Below, in pieces: positions 32,385 through 40,342 of a DNA stretch of 64,000 bases. Every line of letters begins with the position of its first letter. Position 1 is the stretch's first letter. The stretch lies in assembly GCF_003430825.1 (NCBI RefSeq), contig NZ_CP024047.1, forward strand, positions 186,001-250,000, in the 5' to 3' direction. Under the pieces are notes generated by a model. That model did not search any database and had not been told where the DNA came from. It saw nothing but the letters and a program-made list of their open reading frames with translations. The position numbers and the translations under genes were made by a program. The DNA is from Natrarchaeobaculum sulfurireducens (lineage in GTDB: Archaea; Halobacteriota; Halobacteria; Halobacteriales; Natrialbaceae).

Positions 32385-32528
32385 GTGATGAATCGAACGA
32401 ACTCCGACAACGTCCGTTCGCAGCGGACCTTCCTAACATCCACGTCGGTCGTTGTCCGGTACGAGAACCGTACCGACCGCTGTACCATCACTCCCAAATC
32501 CTGCATAGCCGGTGACCGATCGACGACC
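32385..32528 (+). pseudogene. truncated DUF7511-like gene
   Basis: From the ATG at 32385 the frame contains VVVRYENRTDRCTITPKSCI, then AGDRSTTY, which aligns with IVVRYQDGPDRCTITPKDCS and DAERLTTW of the intact DUF7511 gene at 39807-40031. Similarity ends at about 32528, exactly where the palindromic repeat begins, and the frame runs on into the repeat without related sequence. The relic has lost the C-terminal third. Confidence 0.6.
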
Positions 32529-32606
32529 TATAGTAACACCTGCACCGATGTGCACACCGATCGCCGATCCGTCTGGCGAGCAGGTGCGCACTGACGTGCA
32601 GTGGCT
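32527..32606. repeat. palindromic repeat element, copy 1 (inverted relative to copy 2)
   Basis: This stretch of 78-80 bases is about 91% identical to the reverse complement of 40129-40206 (seven differences in 78 positions). It is itself an imperfect palindrome: ACACCTGCACCGATGTGCAC at the left resembles the inverse of the right part GAGCAGGTGCGCACTGACGT. It begins where a DUF7511-like gene is broken off, suggesting insertion of a small non-coding mobile element. Confidence 0.8.
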
Positions 32607-32895
32607 ACGATATTCGTTCCAACCGGCGATCCTTGGGTCCGTTTTTGACCGATCGAGTGTTCACCGACCCCATCCTACAGAACGGATCATTCGTCGGCTC
32701 GTGCCGGCACCTGTCGTGGCTGATTCGGCCATCGAAGCTACGAGGGTGGTCGGTTGATTGGGAGCAGTACGGAGTCAACCAGTAACGTACATCGGCCACA
32801 TATACACGCAGTTTACCGGTGGCGGGAGACGGCCGGTATGCAACAACGCGTGCCGACCGACGATCGAACCACGCAGCGACCTGACGGGGGCACCT

Positions 32896-34029
32896 GTGTT
32901 TGAGGACCTCCTCGAGGCGCTGGTTCAGATCGATATGCTTCTCGCGTCGTTCGCCGGTGGCGCCTTCGGCGCGTCGATCGGTGCGCTGGCGGCGTTCGTC
33001 TTCACCGGACTGCTCGTGATCGCGGGTGAGGTCGCCGCGATCGTCCACCCGGACGCGGCGGTGATAACCGACGAGGTTGCGTTCGGACCGCCGTTTTCGC
33101 CGGCGATCAGCTTCGGGGGTGGCGCAGCGGCTGTGGCCTACGCTGTGCGCCGAGGGTACGTCGAGACGTCGTTCGACTACCACGCGGCCAAGGACGTCAC
33201 GTACGCGCTCGGGACGAAACCGGACGTCCTCGCCGTCGGCGGCGCGTTCGGAGTGCTCGGCTTCTGGCTCACGGAACTCTCCGTCACCGCTGGGATGCCG
33301 TACGACCCCATCGCGATGGGAGTCGTCGTCTCGGCGTTATTTCACCGGCTGGTCCTCGGCTACAGCGTGATCGGAACGGTCCGCGGCCGGGTTCTCGACA
33401 TGGGCCCCTACGATCGAGGGGAGCGCAGGGACTCGAGCAGACGAACGACCGACGGCGGACTGTCTCGGGTCGAATCTGCCGCGGATCGGAGCCGGTCCGA
33501 TTCGAGCCCGGCTGCAGACTCGAGCCGGTTCGTCGTCGAGCCGTGGCTTCCCCACCAGTATCGGTGGGGCCACGTCGGGGCGATCGGAGTCGTCGGCGGA
33601 CTGTTGGGGGCGTACATCGGTGTTGTCTCGGGTAGCGCGTTCCTCGCGTTCGGTATCAGCGCGGCGACGCTGGTCTTCGCCTGTTGTGGTGTCGAGCGTA
33701 TTCCGGTCACCCACCACATCACGTTTCCCGCGAGCACAGCCGCACTGGCTGCGGTGCTTGGACCGAACGCCGTCGCTGGCCCACCGGTTCCCTACAACGA
33801 GACGGCGCTACTGGCTGGCAGCCACTCACTCGAGGTCGCCCTGGTCGTCGGACTCGCGGTCGGCGTCGCCTGCGCTCTGTTCGGCGAACTCTTTCAGCGC
33901 GTGTTCTACGCACACGGAGACACCCACGTCGATCCGCCGGCAGCCGCCATCGTCTTCGGGACCCTGCTGATCGCCGTCGGGTACGCACTCGGCGTGTTCC
34001 CAACGACGGTCTGGATTCCGTTCTTCTAG
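32896..34029 (+). CDS. polytopic membrane protein of unknown function
   Basis: The protein of about 377 residues starts at a GTG (VFEDLLEALVQIDMLLASFA); the frame upstream lacks membrane character. It has two halves, each with glycine-rich hydrophobic helices (ASFAGGAFGASIGALAAFVF; GAIGVVGGLLGAYIGVVSGS), joined by a Ser/Arg/Asp-rich linker of about 35 residues. The repeated layout suggests internal duplication. Its location between the phn and ugp operons raises the possibility of a role in phosphate or metal transport, but no transporter signature was recognised. Confidence 0.65.
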   Translation: MFEDLLEALVQIDMLLASFAGGAFGASIGALAAFVFTGLLVIAGEVAAIVHPDAAVITDEVAFGPPFSPAISFGGGAAAVAYAVRRGYVETSFDYHAAKDVTYALGTKPDVLAVGGAFGVLGFWLTELSVTAGMPYDPIAMGVVVSALFHRLVLGYSVIGTVRGRVLDMGPYDRGERRDSSRRTTDGGLSRVESAADRSRSDSSPAADSSRFVVEPWLPHQYRWGHVGAIGVVGGLLGAYIGVVSGSAFLAFGISAATLVFACCGVERIPVTHHITFPASTAALAAVLGPNAVAGPPVPYNETALLAGSHSLEVALVVGLAVGVACALFGELFQRVFYAHGDTHVDPPAAAIVFGTLLIAVGYALGVFPTTVWIPFF

Positions 34030-34168
34030 GGTCTCGAGACAAGCTCTGCCCCTCGTTCGGGTCTGTCGAACGCTGGAGCCTAGATCGGATGTTTGGCCGC
34101 GTCCTGAATCGTGAGAAACGGTATCGAACTGAGACGAACGTAGCGGTCCGATCGTATTTTTGGCGGCA

Positions 34169-34195
34169 TATATCAAAAATATAAGTCGTATTTAG
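34169..34195 (+). promoter_or_regulatory. promoter of the ugp operon with AT-rich shared element
   Basis: CATATATCAAAAATATAAGT followed by CGTATTTAG ends 23 nt before the ugpB ATG. GTATTTAG occupies the TATA-box position. The layout copies that of the phn promoter (27431-27455) including the distance to the start codon. Confidence 0.6.
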
Positions 34196-34218
34196 TCTAG
34201 ACCGAGCCGTCTCATTCG

Positions 34219-35649
34219 ATGACTGGAAATCAGTCGAAAACAGGTGGGCATTACACGAGACGTAACTTCGTGCTTGCGGGGACAGCGGCTGGTACTGCAG
34301 CGTTGGCAGGGTGTTTTGGCGATGACGATGGAACGCAAGGTGGCAGTGGCGGCGGTGACGACGCTGAAGGCGACACTGAAGTCGACGACGACGTCATCAA
34401 CGTCTGGCACGCGATGGGCGGCGCCAGCGGAGACCTGCTCGACGAGATGGTCGAGCGGTACGACGGCGCGGAGACCCAGTCGGAGTACCAGGGGAGCTAC
34501 GAGGACATCCTGAACAGTCTCTTCGCCTCCATTGAGGCCGGCCAGTCCCCGGACGTCGTAATGATCGACAGCCTGCACAACCAGCAGGTGCTCGACGCTG
34601 GAGCCTCTCAGTCGGCTGAGGCGTTGCTTCCCGGCGATTACCCGATCGACAACCTCGTTCCCGCCGTTCAGGACTTCTTCCGGGTCGACGGTGAACTTCA
34701 CTCGATGCCGTTCAACAACTCCAATGCGATCCTCTACTACAACAAGAGCGCGTACGAGGAGGCGGGGCTCGATCCCGAGTCGCCGCCGGAGACGATCCAG
34801 GAGGTCCGCGAACACTGTGAGGCGCTGGTCGACTCGGGGGCGACCAACTACGGGATCTCCTGGCCAAACCACGTCTGGTTCATCGAGACCTTCTACTCGC
34901 TTGCGAACGAACTCATCCTCGATAACGAGAACGGCCACGATGGCGCGCCGACGACGATGTACGCCGAGACCGCGTTCGCCGAGGACCTCTGGACCTGGTG
35001 GCGCGACCTTTATCAGGACGACCTCTACCTCAATCCGGGGATCGAGGCCTGGGACGAAAGCCGAAATGCCTTCTTGACGGAGCAAGTCGGGATCATGCTC
35101 GACTCAACCGCAGCAGTGGAGTCGACCGCCAGTGGCGCGGAAGGCGACGTTGACGCCGATGACATCGACGAGGATGACGTCGACGGCTTCGAACTCGGCA
35201 CCGGTTTCTACCCGTCACCGACCGACGACTGGACTGGGGTCGTCATCGGCGGTGCGTCGCTGTGGGTCAGCTCCGAGGTGAGCAGCGAACACGAAGAACA
35301 CGTCGGCCAGTTACTCGCCGATCTCGGCTCCGTCGAGAGCCAGATCGAGTGGCATCAGGGTAGCGGCTACTACCCAATCCGTGAGGAGGCTATCGACCAG
35401 CTTGAGGAGGAGGGCTGGTTCGACGAACAACCCCACTACGCGACGGCGTTCGATCAGCTACTCGCAACCGAAACGACTCCGGCGACCCGCCGGATGCTCG
35501 TCGGCCCCGCCCGCGAGGTCCAGCTGACGATCCAGGAAACCTCTCAGGACATCTTCTCGGGTAGCGTCAGCGTCGACGAGGGACTGGCGAACATGAAAGA
35601 ATCCGTCGAAGAGGAGCTCGAGCGATACGCTCGGGTCGCCGACAACTAA
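34219..35649 (+). CDS. ugpB: ABC transporter extracellular substrate-binding lipoprotein, UgpB-type
   Basis: The 476-residue protein has a Tat signal with TRRNFVLAGTAAGTAALAGC, lipobox Cys at residue 32, then a Gly/Asp linker. The binding domain starts INVWHAMGGASGDLLDEMVE and contains MPFNNSNAILYYNKSAYEEA and GGASLWVSSE, as in family-1 extracellular solute-binding proteins of the UgpB group. UgpB binds glycerol-3-phosphate and glycerophosphodiesters. The location among phosphate genes supports that substrate over a plain sugar. The operon continues with two permeases and an ATPase. Confidence 0.82.
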   Translation: MTGNQSKTGGHYTRRNFVLAGTAAGTAALAGCFGDDDGTQGGSGGGDDAEGDTEVDDDVINVWHAMGGASGDLLDEMVERYDGAETQSEYQGSYEDILNSLFASIEAGQSPDVVMIDSLHNQQVLDAGASQSAEALLPGDYPIDNLVPAVQDFFRVDGELHSMPFNNSNAILYYNKSAYEEAGLDPESPPETIQEVREHCEALVDSGATNYGISWPNHVWFIETFYSLANELILDNENGHDGAPTTMYAETAFAEDLWTWWRDLYQDDLYLNPGIEAWDESRNAFLTEQVGIMLDSTAAVESTASGAEGDVDADDIDEDDVDGFELGTGFYPSPTDDWTGVVIGGASLWVSSEVSSEHEEHVGQLLADLGSVESQIEWHQGSGYYPIREEAIDQLEEEGWFDEQPHYATAFDQLLATETTPATRRMLVGPAREVQLTIQETSQDIFSGSVSVDEGLANMKESVEEELERYARVADN

Positions 35650-35689
35650 GCGCCGACTCGCCGATTGATTTCGATACCAACATTCATCA

Positions 35690-36574
35690 ATGACTCGAGA
35701 AATATACGACCGATCGTGGCTCGCCTACCTCCTGTTGGTGCCGACGCTCGTCGTCTCGGCCGTCTTCCTCTACTATCCGGCCTTTCAGGCCGTTCACTTG
35801 AGCCTCTACGAGACGCTCCAGTTTGGCACCCAGCGGCTCTGGACCGGTCTCGGTAACTACAGTTATCTGCTCACCTCGAGTGACTTTCACGCGAGCATCG
35901 GCGTGACGATCGCCTTCTCGGCGATCGTGATCGTCGGCGTGATGGCCATCTCGCTTCTGATTTCGTATCTGATCTACGAGGTGAGTGTCGGACAGTCGTC
36001 ATATCTGATCGCGGCGATCTGGCCGTACGCGTTGCCACCGGCAGTCGCGGGAATCGTCTTCTTCTATATCATTCACCCGAGCCTCGGCGTGCTCACCCAG
36101 CCGATTCAGGCCGTTTTCGGCGTCAACGTCGACTGGTTCACCCGGGGTGGCCAGGCGTTCGTCGTCGTCGTCACTGCCGTCATCTGGAAACAGATCGGCT
36201 ACAACGTCATCTTCATGATCGCCGCGTTGAACAACGTGCCTGACGCCCTCGGCGAGGTCGCCGACCTCGACGGCGTTGGGCCGCTCGAGCGGCTTCGGCG
36301 GATCTACGTCCCGCTGATCTCGCCAACCTTGCTCTTTCTGGTCGTGATGAACACGATCTACGCGTTCTTCCACACGTTCGCGTTCATCGACATCCTCACC
36401 CAGGGCGGTCCCGGTGGTGCGACTAATATTCTGATTTACGACCTGTATCGCAACGCATTCGAGTTCAACAACCACGGACTGGCGTCGGCACAGTCGGTCA
36501 TCCTGTTCCTGATCGTCGGCGGGCTGATGTACGCCCAGCTTCGGCTCTCCGATCGGTACACGCACTATGGGTGA
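35690..36574 (+). CDS. ugpA: ABC transporter permease, UgpA-type
   Basis: The 294-residue protein has six membrane helices. The first follows WLAYLLLVPTLVVSAVFLYY, and the EAA loop is EVADLDGVGPLERLRRIYVP near residues 185-205, followed by LISPTLLFLVVMNTIYAFF and DILTQGGPGGATNIL, all typical of MalF/UgpA permeases. It begins 40 nt after ugpB and ends 6 nt before the next permease. Confidence 0.87.
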   Translation: MTREIYDRSWLAYLLLVPTLVVSAVFLYYPAFQAVHLSLYETLQFGTQRLWTGLGNYSYLLTSSDFHASIGVTIAFSAIVIVGVMAISLLISYLIYEVSVGQSSYLIAAIWPYALPPAVAGIVFFYIIHPSLGVLTQPIQAVFGVNVDWFTRGGQAFVVVVTAVIWKQIGYNVIFMIAALNNVPDALGEVADLDGVGPLERLRRIYVPLISPTLLFLVVMNTIYAFFHTFAFIDILTQGGPGGATNILIYDLYRNAFEFNNHGLASAQSVILFLIVGGLMYAQLRLSDRYTHYG

Positions 36575-36580
36575 GCACAC

Positions 36581-37456
36581 GTGAGTATAGACACCCCATC
36601 CACGATCGACCGAGTTACCGAATCGCTCGAGCAGCCGACGACGGATCGGACCCAGCTGCTAGCTCACGCGACGCTCGTGGTGTCGGTGGTATTGATGGCG
36701 CTTCCGATTCTGATCGCTGCGCTCGTCAGCACGCAACAGCAGGGTCTGATCGGAGGATTCAGCGATCTCGCCCCCGGCGGCCACGCGATCGAAAACTATC
36801 GAACGGTGATGACCGACTACAACTTTGGCGTCTACCTGCTGAACTCGTTTATCATGTCGATCGTCATTGTCGTTGGGAAACTGGTAATCTCGCTTCTGGC
36901 GGCGCTGGCGATCGTCTACTACCGCTTCCCGTTCAAGAACCTGATGTTCATGCTGATCCTCTTTACGCTGATGCTGCCGGTGCCGGTCCGGTTCGTGCCG
37001 CTTTTCAACATCGTCACGGACCTGGGCTGGTACAACAGCATGCTTGCGCTCACGATTCCATATCTCGCGAGCGCAACCACCGTCTTCTTGCTCCGACAGC
37101 ATTTCCTCTCGATCCCCGAATCGATCGTCGACCAGGCGAAACTCGACGGCATCGGGCCGCTAAAATTCCTCGTCTACGTGCTGATCCCGATGTCGAAAGG
37201 GATGCTTGCCGGTGTCTCGGTCATCATGTTCATCTACGCCTGGAACCAGTACCTCTGGCCGTTGATCATCGTCGACTCGCAGGCTCAGCAAGTCACCCAG
37301 GTCGGGATCACCCTCCTGCAAGGTGACGTTCAGGGCGGCGAACTGCAGTGGTCGATCGTGATGGCCGGAGCGATTCTCACGCTGGTCCCCCCGCTGCTCG
37401 CGCTACTCGCGTTCCGAAAACCGCTCCTCGAGACGTTCGCCGTCCAACAGAAGTGA
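36581..37456 (+). CDS. ugpE: ABC transporter permease, UgpE-type
   Basis: The 291-residue protein has six helices. Its MalG/UgpE features are NSFIMSIVIVVGKLVISLLA, the EAA loop DQAKLDGIGPLKFLVYVLIP, and a C-terminal YAWNQYLWPLIIVDSQAQQV (the W-x-L/W-P-L signature of this group). The start is a GTG at 36581. A QLQW/VMAGA-type segment near the C-terminus completes the fold. It pairs with UgpA. Confidence 0.87.
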   Translation: MSIDTPSTIDRVTESLEQPTTDRTQLLAHATLVVSVVLMALPILIAALVSTQQQGLIGGFSDLAPGGHAIENYRTVMTDYNFGVYLLNSFIMSIVIVVGKLVISLLAALAIVYYRFPFKNLMFMLILFTLMLPVPVRFVPLFNIVTDLGWYNSMLALTIPYLASATTVFLLRQHFLSIPESIVDQAKLDGIGPLKFLVYVLIPMSKGMLAGVSVIMFIYAWNQYLWPLIIVDSQAQQVTQVGITLLQGDVQGGELQWSIVMAGAILTLVPPLLALLAFRKPLLETFAVQQK

Positions 37457-37461
37457 AACCT

Positions 37462-38607
37462 ATGACAGAACTCACACTCGACACCGTCACGAAACGATTC
37501 GACGACGTAACGGCAGTGAACGAGATCGACCTGGCCGTCGAAGACGGCGAGTTTCTCGTCCTGGTCGGCCCCTCCGGCTGTGGGAAGTCGACGACGCTCC
37601 GAATGCTCGCCGGCCTCGAGAGTGTCACCGACGGTCGGATTCTGGTCGGTGACGACGACGTCACCCACGCGGAGCCGAAAGACCGCAACGTCGCGATGGT
37701 GTTCCAGAACTACGCGCTCTACCCACACATGTCTGCAAAACGGAACATGACGTTCGGCATGAAATCGGCGGGTGAGTACACCGACGACGAGATCGAAGAC
37801 CGTGTCGCCGAAGCCGCTGCCATACTCGACATTGAGGACCTCCTCGAGCGTAAACCGAAGGCACTCTCAGGCGGGGAGCGCCAGCGCGTAGCCATCGGCC
37901 GTGCGCTCGTTCGCGACCCCGACTATCTGTTGATGGACGAACCGTTATCGAACCTAGATGCAAAGTTACGGATCCAGATGCGGGCCGAACTTGCACAGCT
38001 CCACGAGGAACTCGAGACGACGACGGTCTACGTCACGCACGACCAGACCGAAGCGATGACGTTAGGTGACCGTGTCGCCGTCATGAACGACGGCCAGATC
38101 CAGCAGATCGCCGAGCCACAGCGACTGTACGACTATCCCACGAACCGGTTCGTCGCCGAATTCATCGGTTCCCCAGCGATGAATACCCTCGAGCTCTCTT
38201 TCGATCGTTCGGGATCACACTCCCATATTACTGGCCAAGACGTTGCACTGGCGCTTGAGGACGATGCTAAACTGGACGGCTACGACGACGGCACCGTCGT
38301 CCTCGGAGTCCGTCCGGAAGACCTCGTGCCCTGTCCCAACGGCGAAGCGAGCGATACTGACCTCACGGCTACCGTCGTGACCACCGAGTCCCTCGGCAGC
38401 AGCACGATCGTTCACGCGACTGTCGCCGGACAGCCGCTGGTAATCGAGGCGCCGGCTCGCGCCGAGTACCGACCTGGTGACCGCGTCGACGTCACCTGTG
38501 AGGAGGACCGGCTCCACCTATTCGATCCAGATGGCGGAGACAGCATCTACAATTCGGATCGCTCCGATGCGGACGAATACGCTCGTGTGTCGACGAACGC
38601 GGACTAA
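37462..38607 (+). CDS. ugpC: ABC transporter ATP-binding protein, UgpC/MalK-type
   Basis: The 381-residue ATPase has Walker [10 protein letters not shown] at about residues 36-44, signature LSGGERQRVAIGRALV, Walker B LLMDEPLSNLDAKLR and H-loop VTHDQTEAMTLGD. The C-terminal ~130 residues form the MalK-type regulatory OB domain with GVRPEDL. It energises import through UgpAE. In enteric bacteria UgpC transport is inhibited by internal phosphate; this could apply here but is inference. Confidence 0.9.
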   Translation: MTELTLDTVTKRFDDVTAVNEIDLAVEDGEFLVLVGPSGCGKSTTLRMLAGLESVTDGRILVGDDDVTHAEPKDRNVAMVFQNYALYPHMSAKRNMTFGMKSAGEYTDDEIEDRVAEAAAILDIEDLLERKPKALSGGERQRVAIGRALVRDPDYLLMDEPLSNLDAKLRIQMRAELAQLHEELETTTVYVTHDQTEAMTLGDRVAVMNDGQIQQIAEPQRLYDYPTNRFVAEFIGSPAMNTLELSFDRSGSHSHITGQDVALALEDDAKLDGYDDGTVVLGVRPEDLVPCPNGEASDTDLTATVVTTESLGSSTIVHATVAGQPLVIEAPARAEYRPGDRVDVTCEEDRLHLFDPDGGDSIYNSDRSDADEYARVSTNAD

Positions 38608-38735
38608 TACAGAAACTGGGTTCCTGTCGAACCTGTCGACTGGATTTCTGGTGTGGGGAAACTAGATTCACGCTCCCATGGGATAGCAGAAGTTCCATCG
38701 CATGAGTCGAACAACAGGGAATCGCTGGTGGCTGC

Positions 38736-39551
38736 CTACCGAACACTCGCTAGCGAGCGCTCGAGCGCCCGACGTTCGCGGTCGATTCGCTCGCCGAGGT
38801 CGGCGACGGCCGAAAGCACCGGGTAGGTGTGCGCGCAGTCGTCGTAGAGGTACTGCTCGAAGGCGCCGATACCGGCCATCGTCAGGTCGCGCCGACCGCT
38901 GATCTGTGGCTGACGGACGGCGACGAGCTCATCACAGGCGGCCTCGAGTTCGAGGAGCCTGGCCCGCGACAGGCGCAACGCGTTGAACTCCAGCTGCTCG
39001 AGCGGTTGTGCGAGAATCGACTCGACCGCCGTGTGGATCGACTTCAGGTCTCGGCGCGCGGTCTCGACCAGTTCGGCCTCGCGTTCGACGGAGCCGAGGA
39101 TCCGTCGTCTCGAGGCGATCGACTGGTCGGTCGCCTCGAGCAACGCCTGTTTCACCTCCGGCGAGAGCGTCGTCTGGTGTTCGAGGGCGGCCGCGAGGTC
39201 CTGATTGAACTCACCTCGCAGGTGTTCGGTCCAGTGTTCGCCGTAGACGTCGTCGTAGTGAGGCGTGGCCATGACGGTCTCGGCGAAGAGCGACCGAACT
39301 TTGGCGACCGAGCCCGTGATCCCGACGGTGGCGTGCGCCGGTCCGACCGATTGTACACTGGTGGCGTGTGCACCGGCTGGTTGCGCTCCGGCAGTCCCTC
39401 CACCGACTGCCCGGACGTCGCTTGCCTCGACCGTTCGGAGGTCGCAAGCAAACCGTCCGAACGCGTTGATCTCAGCCTGCAGAATCTCGCGTTCGCGCTC
39501 GATCGCTCGCCGGGCGTCGTCGATCCTCCGCAGTGGTGACGGCTCGTCCAT
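38736..39551 (-). CDS. DUF7260-like haloarchaeal coiled-coil protein
   Basis: The 271-residue protein is mostly helical and charged, starting MDEPSPLRRIDDARRAIERE, with long heptad-like stretches (EREAELVETARRDLKSIHTA and the final DLGERIDRERRALERSLASV). A Gly/Ala-rich linker spans about residues 45-75. Conserved features include PHYDDVYGEHWTEHLRGEFN and LSRARLLELEAACDELVAVR. The family occurs only in haloarchaea and has no known function. It stands opposite the ugp operon. Confidence 0.65.
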   Translation of the reverse strand: MDEPSPLRRIDDARRAIEREREILQAEINAFGRFACDLRTVEASDVRAVGGGTAGAQPAGAHATSVQSVGPAHATVGITGSVAKVRSLFAETVMATPHYDDVYGEHWTEHLRGEFNQDLAAALEHQTTLSPEVKQALLEATDQSIASRRRILGSVEREAELVETARRDLKSIHTAVESILAQPLEQLEFNALRLSRARLLELEAACDELVAVRQPQISGRRDLTMAGIGAFEQYLYDDCAHTYPVLSAVADLGERIDRERRALERSLASVR

Positions 39552-39806
39552 GGCTACTGGCGTGTGGACGTTTTATCCTTCTAAACGTAACTAGTAGCAA
39601 CAATGGGCGCTACGTAAGCCAACAAATGCCACAGTGGTAAACGAGTTCGTCCGGGAGTCGACTCGACTCCGCATCCGTCGGCGCGCCCTGAGTTCTCCGG
39701 AGCAATCCGTTCGGATGGGAGCGCTCCCGATCTCTCAATACCGAAACTAGTAGCGGTTTTGTATCTCTCCTGTGTGTGACCTTTTGTCGAAGAGATCCCA
39801 GAATCC

Positions 39807-40031
39807 ATGACCGGAGCAACCAGAGAATACGACGACCGATCGCTCGCCAGTACGCTAGACGTCGATGACCCCTCGTCGCCAGGTCAGCCGCTCGAGGCGA
39901 TCGTCGTTCGGTATCAGGACGGTCCGGACCGCTGTACGATCACGCCTAAAGACTGCTCCGACGCCGAGCGGTTGACCACCTGGCTCTCTGCGGATCTAGA
40001 TCTGCTCGTCGACGTGACCGACGCCCGGTAG
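39807..40031 (+). CDS. DUF7511-like small protein
   Basis: The 74-residue protein contains EAIVVRYQDGPDRCTITPKD, then CSDAERLTTWLSADLDLLVD near its C-terminus, the pattern of a small haloarchaeal family (VRY..GPDRCT..P....E.MTTW). Function is unknown. A truncated relative lies at 32385-32528. Downstream, separated by about 97 bases, is the second copy of the palindromic repeat. Confidence 0.72.
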   Translation: MTGATREYDDRSLASTLDVDDPSSPGQPLEAIVVRYQDGPDRCTITPKDCSDAERLTTWLSADLDLLVDVTDAR

Positions 40032-40342
40032 CTGTCGGATGATCCGACCCGGGGAATGCCGCGGACGATTCCCGCGGCCGACGCTGCTCGAGTTCGTCCT
40101 CGGTGTGATTGGCTCCGCTGTGGTATGGTGGTCACTGCACGTCAGTGTGCACCTGTTCGCCAGACGGACCGGTGATCAGTGTGCACATCGGTGCAGGTGT
40201 TACTATCGCTGTAGCTCACCCGTTGGGGTAGTATTCGGACAGCCCTCGAAACGGGATTCTGGCGGTGTTGTCCAGCGTCGTTCCATCGACGTGCTGAAAC
40301 GACGGGCCGACGATCGACTCCTCACGAACGTGCCCGATCGAG
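40032..40342. other. 311-base gap holding the second palindromic repeat
   Basis: The central part is the repeat 40129-40206. A rightward frame from 40039 has one hydrophobic segment but becomes Arg-rich and overlaps the repeat and the phoU-like gene, so it was not called. No other gene is seen. Confidence 0.5.
40129..40206. repeat. palindromic repeat element, copy 2
   Basis: This 78-base stretch matches the reverse complement of 32527-32606 at 71 of 78 positions. It contains GTGCAC boxes and is an imperfect palindrome. It sits in the intergenic gap behind the intact DUF7511-like gene. Confidence 0.8.

Follow-up and report, generated by a model that had tools for sequence, protein, structure and literature searches.

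The closest precedent for the element described here is RUP of Streptococcus pneumoniae, a repeat of about 100 bp that is present in about 100 copies, carries terminal inverted repeats resembling those of IS630-Spn1, inserts at TA and has been found inside or next to other insertion sequences (PMC2229807). The ERIC and Correia/NEMIS repeats of bacteria are also short, dispersed and hairpin-forming, with TA termini and a target duplication (PMC2229807). The duplication of a TA is the hallmark of the IS630/Tc1 elements, and transposition into TA with its duplication has been established in vitro for ISY100 (PMC2170065). Among the haloarchaea, the SMR-A and SMR-B repeats of Haloquadratum walsbyi were defined by the lack of a target duplication and by ends unlike those of any transposon (PMC3119063), and Halobacterium and Haloquadratum are mentioned in a review from 2024 on MITEs in prokaryotes (PMC10969869). 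The paper on the N. magadii genome lists the IS elements and uses neither the word MITE nor the word palindrome (PMC3403918). We found no earlier description of the present element in the open-access papers searched.

We have analysed a stretch of 64,000 nucleotides of the Natrarchaeobaculum sulfurireducens genome (the window) in which two inverted repeats enclose a ugp region. Judged from sequence comparison, these repeats are very probably copies of an 80-bp non-autonomous MITE of the IS630/Tc1-mariner type: Its two ends, TAGTAAC... and TAGTAGC..., would be recognised in trans by an IS630-family DDE transposase that may cut the element out, and the excised element would be pasted at a TA, preferably inside CTAG, with duplication of the TA. 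Like RUP, the element is short, has inverted repeats resembling IS630, uses a TA target and would work alike. Unlike RUP, it folds into a hairpin over nearly its full length, shows paired changes, occurs in many genera and has only the outer 9-10 bases (at the right end up to 23 of 30) in common with its IS630. To our knowledge, the sequences of the element and of RUP are unrelated. The resemblance to ERIC and Correia/NEMIS, which are bacterial, extends to the same traits and is one of description only. A boundary, a target and a candidate transposase family can be defined for an archaeal TA/CTAG-targeting MITE that is comparable to RUP.

The inverted pair in the window

The first-pass annotation of this DNA had pointed out two near-identical palindromes in opposite orientation, and this holds over the full unit: 76 of 86 positions of copy 1 are identical to the reverse complement of copy 2 (Table 1). 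Without gaps, positions 32530-32612 and the reverse complement of 40124-40206 agree at 74 of 83 positions, including an exact run of 28 bp at one end; if bases are taken as independent, about 2e-23 inverted matches of this quality would arise by chance in 64 kb. Each copy is an imperfect palindrome. A scan of the window with the covariance model R1, which was built from relatives, returned exactly two copies, and copy 1 is the best match of the search in its own genome. The size of 78-80 bp originally assigned to the repeats was slightly short, since the conserved unit of 86 bp consists of the 80-bp element plus TA and one base on each side. The GTGCAC boxes noted before are present, but they belong to the inner stem (consensus TTACACAC / GTGTGC) and do not form motifs of their own.

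Table 1. Features at the two copies in the window (R1, covariance model).
Feature	Position in window	Strand	Remarks
Copy 1, unit of 86 bp (80-bp hairpin with TA and one flanking base on either side)	32528..32613	+	R1 full length, 91.4 bits, E 1.4e-23
Copy 1, element proper, 80 bp bounded by TA on both sides	32531..32610	+	Boundaries inferred by comparison with relatives that have empty sites
Copy 2, unit of 86 bp, in opposite orientation to copy 1	40123..40208	-	R1, 72.5 bits, E 4.1e-18
Copy 2, element proper, 80 bp	40126..40205	-	Boundaries carried over as for copy 1
Truncated DUF7511 reading frame, 3' end cut by copy 1	32445..32528	+	PF24351 E 5.5e-8, profile positions 4-31 of 47

The enclosed genes are those previously described, with the Pfam domains SBP_bac_8, BPD_transp_1, ABC_tran with TOBE_2, DUF7260 and DUF7511; the reading frame 32758-34029 gave no match in the Pfam search. 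Both copies lie near members of the same gene family: The truncated DUF7511 frame adjoins copy 1 and runs into it beyond profile position 31 of PF24351, and the intergenic copy 2 is located about 90 bp downstream of an intact DUF7511 paralogue (39807-40031). No empty site was found for copy 1 itself, and its boundaries are carried over from relatives. Both copies have worn ends, those of copy 2 being CGATAG / ATAC. Elsewhere in this genome, a second ugp-like region (G000:C3:330815-334643) is 83% identical to positions 34353-38189 of the window and lies in the opposite orientation.

It had also been suggested that the pair might allow inversion of the 7.5-kb segment between the copies. The opposite orientation of two repeats that share 74 of 83 positions, with the 28-bp exact run at one end, speaks for an inversion switch for the ugp segment; however, no recombinase is linked to the copies, and the pair represents just two of dozens of dispersed copies. 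Moreover, copy 2 is missing from the collinear locus of the sister genome G002 (95% identity on one side), which is collinear with the window between 37.1 and 41.9 kb, a stretch that spans the site of copy 2. There, the flanks of copy 2 are nearly joined, with small indels, so that the junction is not base-exact. This collinearity covers the boundary at copy 2; the copy-1 site is absent from the G002 contigs. The stretch from 32.7 to 37.1 kb of the window is collinear with another G002 contig. An inversion switch thus finds no support in these comparisons, and we regard it as extremely unlikely. To the right of copy 1, the synteny with G002 breaks at a distance of about 90 bp (32613-32706 in the window), which may be a coincidence.

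Spread and insertion sites

Had the palindromes been confined to this locus, the idea of a mobile element would have lost its ground, but dozens of copies are present in the same genome and the element recurs in many relatives. In its own genome, at least 40 copies, all with E < 2e-20, were scored among 73 candidates. The spread in relatives is wide, patchy and multi-copy: With the covariance model, the 86-bp unit was detected in 100 of the 121 sampled genomes of the Natrialbaceae and in 92 of 242 Halobacteria, several other families included, and the hosts include Natrialba, Natronorubrum, Natronococcus, Natrinema, Natrarchaeobius, Natronobiforma, Salinadaptatus, Haloarcula and Halomicrobium. 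When up to one mismatch was allowed, 96 forward and 90 reverse ends were counted in the genome taken as that of N. magadii (G028), as compared to 0 and 1 matches of the reversed control pattern. Since the element is so abundant in its own genome and in relatives, two copies per 64 kb are an ordinary density. A single covariance model recognises the element in a large part of the class Halobacteria, where a genome may contain up to about 90 copies. No match to the element was found in the phage records searched. In virus contigs, four left-end matches had no element body attached and are due to chance, and 105 matches to the short right-end pattern were judged to be mostly chance and were not used. 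Some draft assemblies show what look like tandem copies with N between them; these probably arose during assembly.

Three observations define the target of the element as TA, preferably inside CTAG. (i) Two empty sites are base-exact, and both imply the duplication of TA and an 80-bp element. For the copy on the plasmid pHH400 of Haloarcula hispanica, the empty site of H. amylolytica reads ...GCTGCCCGAG-CTAG-GGACACGG. In Natronococcus pandeyae, a copy interrupts a gene whose homologue in Natrialba sp. SSL1 is uninterrupted, and removal of the element together with one TA restores the reading frame. (ii) Of 91 copies with intact ends, 73 have a G at position 86 of the unit, and of the 41 that were not selected for the base at position 1, 33 have a C there (80% in either case); the neighbouring bases are close to background. 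(iii) Duplications of 2-9 bp outside TA/CTAG were sought in the flanks of the copies, and none stands out. The word CTAG is about six-fold depleted in the window. Other comparisons were less precise: The copies are common to pHH400 and the plasmid of CBA1115, and no empty sites were found there; orthologous intergenic regions without elements do exist between G000 and G003, the former being the genome of the window, but these are too diverged for base-exact junctions. The positions of the copies are lineage-specific.

In the genome of the window, the family looks inactive, and the two copies are probably relics: No IS of the TATAGTA-ended IS630 subfamily was detected at the DNA level, both copies have worn ends, and the copies of this genome are about 10% diverged from their consensus as compared to 2.5-5.6% in the sets from Haloarcula and Natrialba. 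As the value of 10% was obtained with the best-scoring copies, the true figure is higher.

A hairpin under constraint

The element is an 80-bp hairpin, TAGTAAC...GGCTACTA, with the TA duplicated on both sides. The unit measures exactly 86 bp (CTATAGTAACAACTGCAA...TTGCAGTGGCTACTATAG) in 138 distinct copies, which had been gathered by this length, and has the terminal inverted repeats CTATAGTAACAACTGCAA / CTATAGTAGCCACTGCAA. Variants of other lengths are readily counted: Those of 126, 158, 246 and 408 bp have additional hairpin-forming sequence in the apical loop, and one derivative of 40 bp has lost the middle. Most of the body forms one long hairpin in which a bulge and an internal loop are conserved, and the apical loop tolerates inserts. 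In the two longest variants, L381 (G028:C1:3153000-3154700, 408 bp) and L382 (G028:C1:1272700-1273800, 246 bp), the apical loop is full of repeated units, e.g. GCGGTTCTCACTCACTTCGTTCGCTCGCGGGTCACGTTGTTCCCCGCTCG, which gives the impression of a second repeat expanding within the loop. In two genera, elements are fused head to tail with an exact offset of 80 bp and one common CTATAG (L233:6705-6870 and L235:4492 onward); insertion into TA would give 82 bp, and slippage between the terminal CTATAG words fits better.

As drawn, the hairpin has 31 pairs, and 93% of the cells are paired versus at most 40% if the partners are slid. Paired changes occur at 13-74, 16-71, 18-69, 25-60, 31-55, 38-48 and 39-47, and the arms differ between genera in a concerted manner: ACTGCAA/TTGCAGT is typical of Natrialba, ATTGAAA/TTTCAAT of Haloarcula, ACTGAAA/TTTCAGT of Natronorubrum and Natronococcus, and ACTGGAA/TTCCAGT of Natrarchaeobius. 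At the same time, four irregularities are retained: the internal loop 19-23/62-68, the bulge at 29 and the mismatches 9/78 and 11/76. The paired changes in the arms and the inner stem show that the hairpin has been maintained. Template switching within the palindrome would be expected to perfect the arms and would therefore not be the whole explanation of the pairing. One may go a step further and propose that the hairpin itself, and not the ends alone, is selected, given that arms and inner stem covary between genera while the bulge, the internal loop and the near-terminal mismatches are fixed; the structure would then be the working substrate, either as structured RNA or as an extruded cruciform, and would decide on mobility or act on host transcripts across haloarchaea. 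We regard this extension as rather unlikely.

The same features could suggest that the repeat is a conserved regulatory element of RNA or DNA, e.g. a hairpin for mRNA stability or termination, that is mobile in appearance only, and the first-pass annotation had offered a structured regulatory repeat as one of two possible identities. The strong paired changes, the fixed bulge and internal loop, and the fact that most plasmid copies have no annotated gene beneath are in line with such a function. It is difficult to reconcile, however, with the lineage-specific positions, the exact TA/CTAG target, the copy that interrupts a coding gene and the one that ends the DUF7511 frame. Moreover, a search of five loci with copies against Rfam 15 yielded nothing at the gathering score, the chance matches to microRNAs being far below the threshold. 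A regulatory repeat as the primary nature of the element is thus highly improbable, even if the hairpin is constrained, and the MITE reading accounts for a large set of mostly intergenic hairpins that are otherwise open to misreading as regulatory RNA.

A long hairpin might also be moved in single-stranded form by an HUH transposase (IS200/IS605 or RAYT), as would be the case for an SMR or a PATE/REPIN-like element. Indeed, the element resembles the SMRs in its size (80-110 bp for the SMRs, one family having 80 bp; PMC3119063), its inverted terminal repeats, its non-coding and multi-copy nature in haloarchaea and its frequent position beside mobile elements, and it is hairpin throughout; in addition, one solo end is located inside a tnpB gene. 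Yet IS605-type elements and SMRs make no duplication (PMC3119063), and the element has both a TA duplication and terminal inverted repeats related to those of a DDE transposon. It is these two properties, i. e. the description of the SMRs rather than sequence, that set it apart from them, and PATEs lack terminal inverted repeats and PATE/REPIN elements a target duplication. We therefore consider movement by an HUH transposase highly improbable. The solo end, a right end on N. magadii pNMAG02 (L120:7172, minus strand, ~172 kb), provides the last codons of a TnpB-like gene (WP_237076856); a composite element at this place was discarded as no left end was found.

The IS630 subfamily as a candidate partner

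The idea of a small non-autonomous mobile element, the other identity proposed at the outset, is supported by the dispersed copies, the empty sites, the TA duplication and the outer termini in common with an IS630 subfamily. The element has what defines a MITE: It is too short for a transposase gene, is bounded by terminal inverted repeats and a target-site duplication, is dispersed in many copies, and has ends related to those of an autonomous transposon, with a differing inner motif. Its insertion at TA, preferably in CTAG, is that of an IS630-mobilised element. A preference of IS630 for CTAG is named in the title of a paper by Tenzen and Ohtsubo from 1991 (listed in PMC2170065).

The related IS is a haloarchaeal, TATAGTA-ended subfamily of the IS630 family (Tc1/mariner superfamily). 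It measures about 1061 bp, encodes HTH (PF13592) and DDE_3 (PF13358) in overlapping frames and has the termini CTATAGTAACCGTTAGAA / CTATAGTAGACGTTAGAA. The arrangement of HTH and DDE_3 in two overlapping frames, as in L332:941-1977, is found in many intact copies of the subfamily and suggests programmed frameshifting. At both ends, the first 9-10 bases are common to the element and the IS, the A/G difference between the two ends is the same, and at the right end up to 23 of 30 bases are identical. This comparison rests on consensus sequences; a contrast in which the IS ends had been chosen with a motif overlapping the bases under comparison is biased and was not relied on. The ends of other IS630 subfamilies, including those of the genome of the window, are unrelated to the element. 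In two genera, IS630 copies are inserted into the element at the internal CTAG of AACTAGTT (L307 in N. magadii, L326 in the other), and thus the IS targets the same word as the element. Unlike the IS, the element has no coding capacity, and the inner terminal motifs of the two differ, with ACTGNAA or ATTGAAA in the element and GTTAGAA in the IS.

This difference bears on the source of the transposase. The TATAGTA-ended subfamily may supply it, and the IS is present in 59 of 100 genomes with the element versus 5 of 21 without it (Fisher p 0.004, with no correction for phylogeny). Alternatively, the same class of MITE could be moved by another IS630-type transposase whose IS has TAGTARCMACTGNAA ends and is absent from most sampled genomes, the TATAGTA-ended subfamily then being a cousin rather than the partner. 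In favour of this, the inner motif varies by clade in the element and stays GTTAGAA in the IS, even at 50% transposase identity, and genomes such as G083 and G133 are rich in high-scoring copies and have no match to the IS. Against it, an IS carrying the inner terminal motif of the element was sought and none found, and no facing ends with this motif at kb spacing were seen among the places listed in N. magadii. We regard this alternative as a serious possibility, if less likely than not. Because the inner motif differs, no closer IS was found and the co-occurrence is partial, the TATAGTA-ended subfamily is put forward as a candidate source only; the IS630-type mechanism itself appears well supported. 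With these predictions, mobilisation by an archaeal IS630 becomes testable in tractable hosts. Another repeat, about 300 bp long, was met in the flank of L253 (query positions 3-304); it recurs at several places in the Natrialba genomes G028, G096 and G120.
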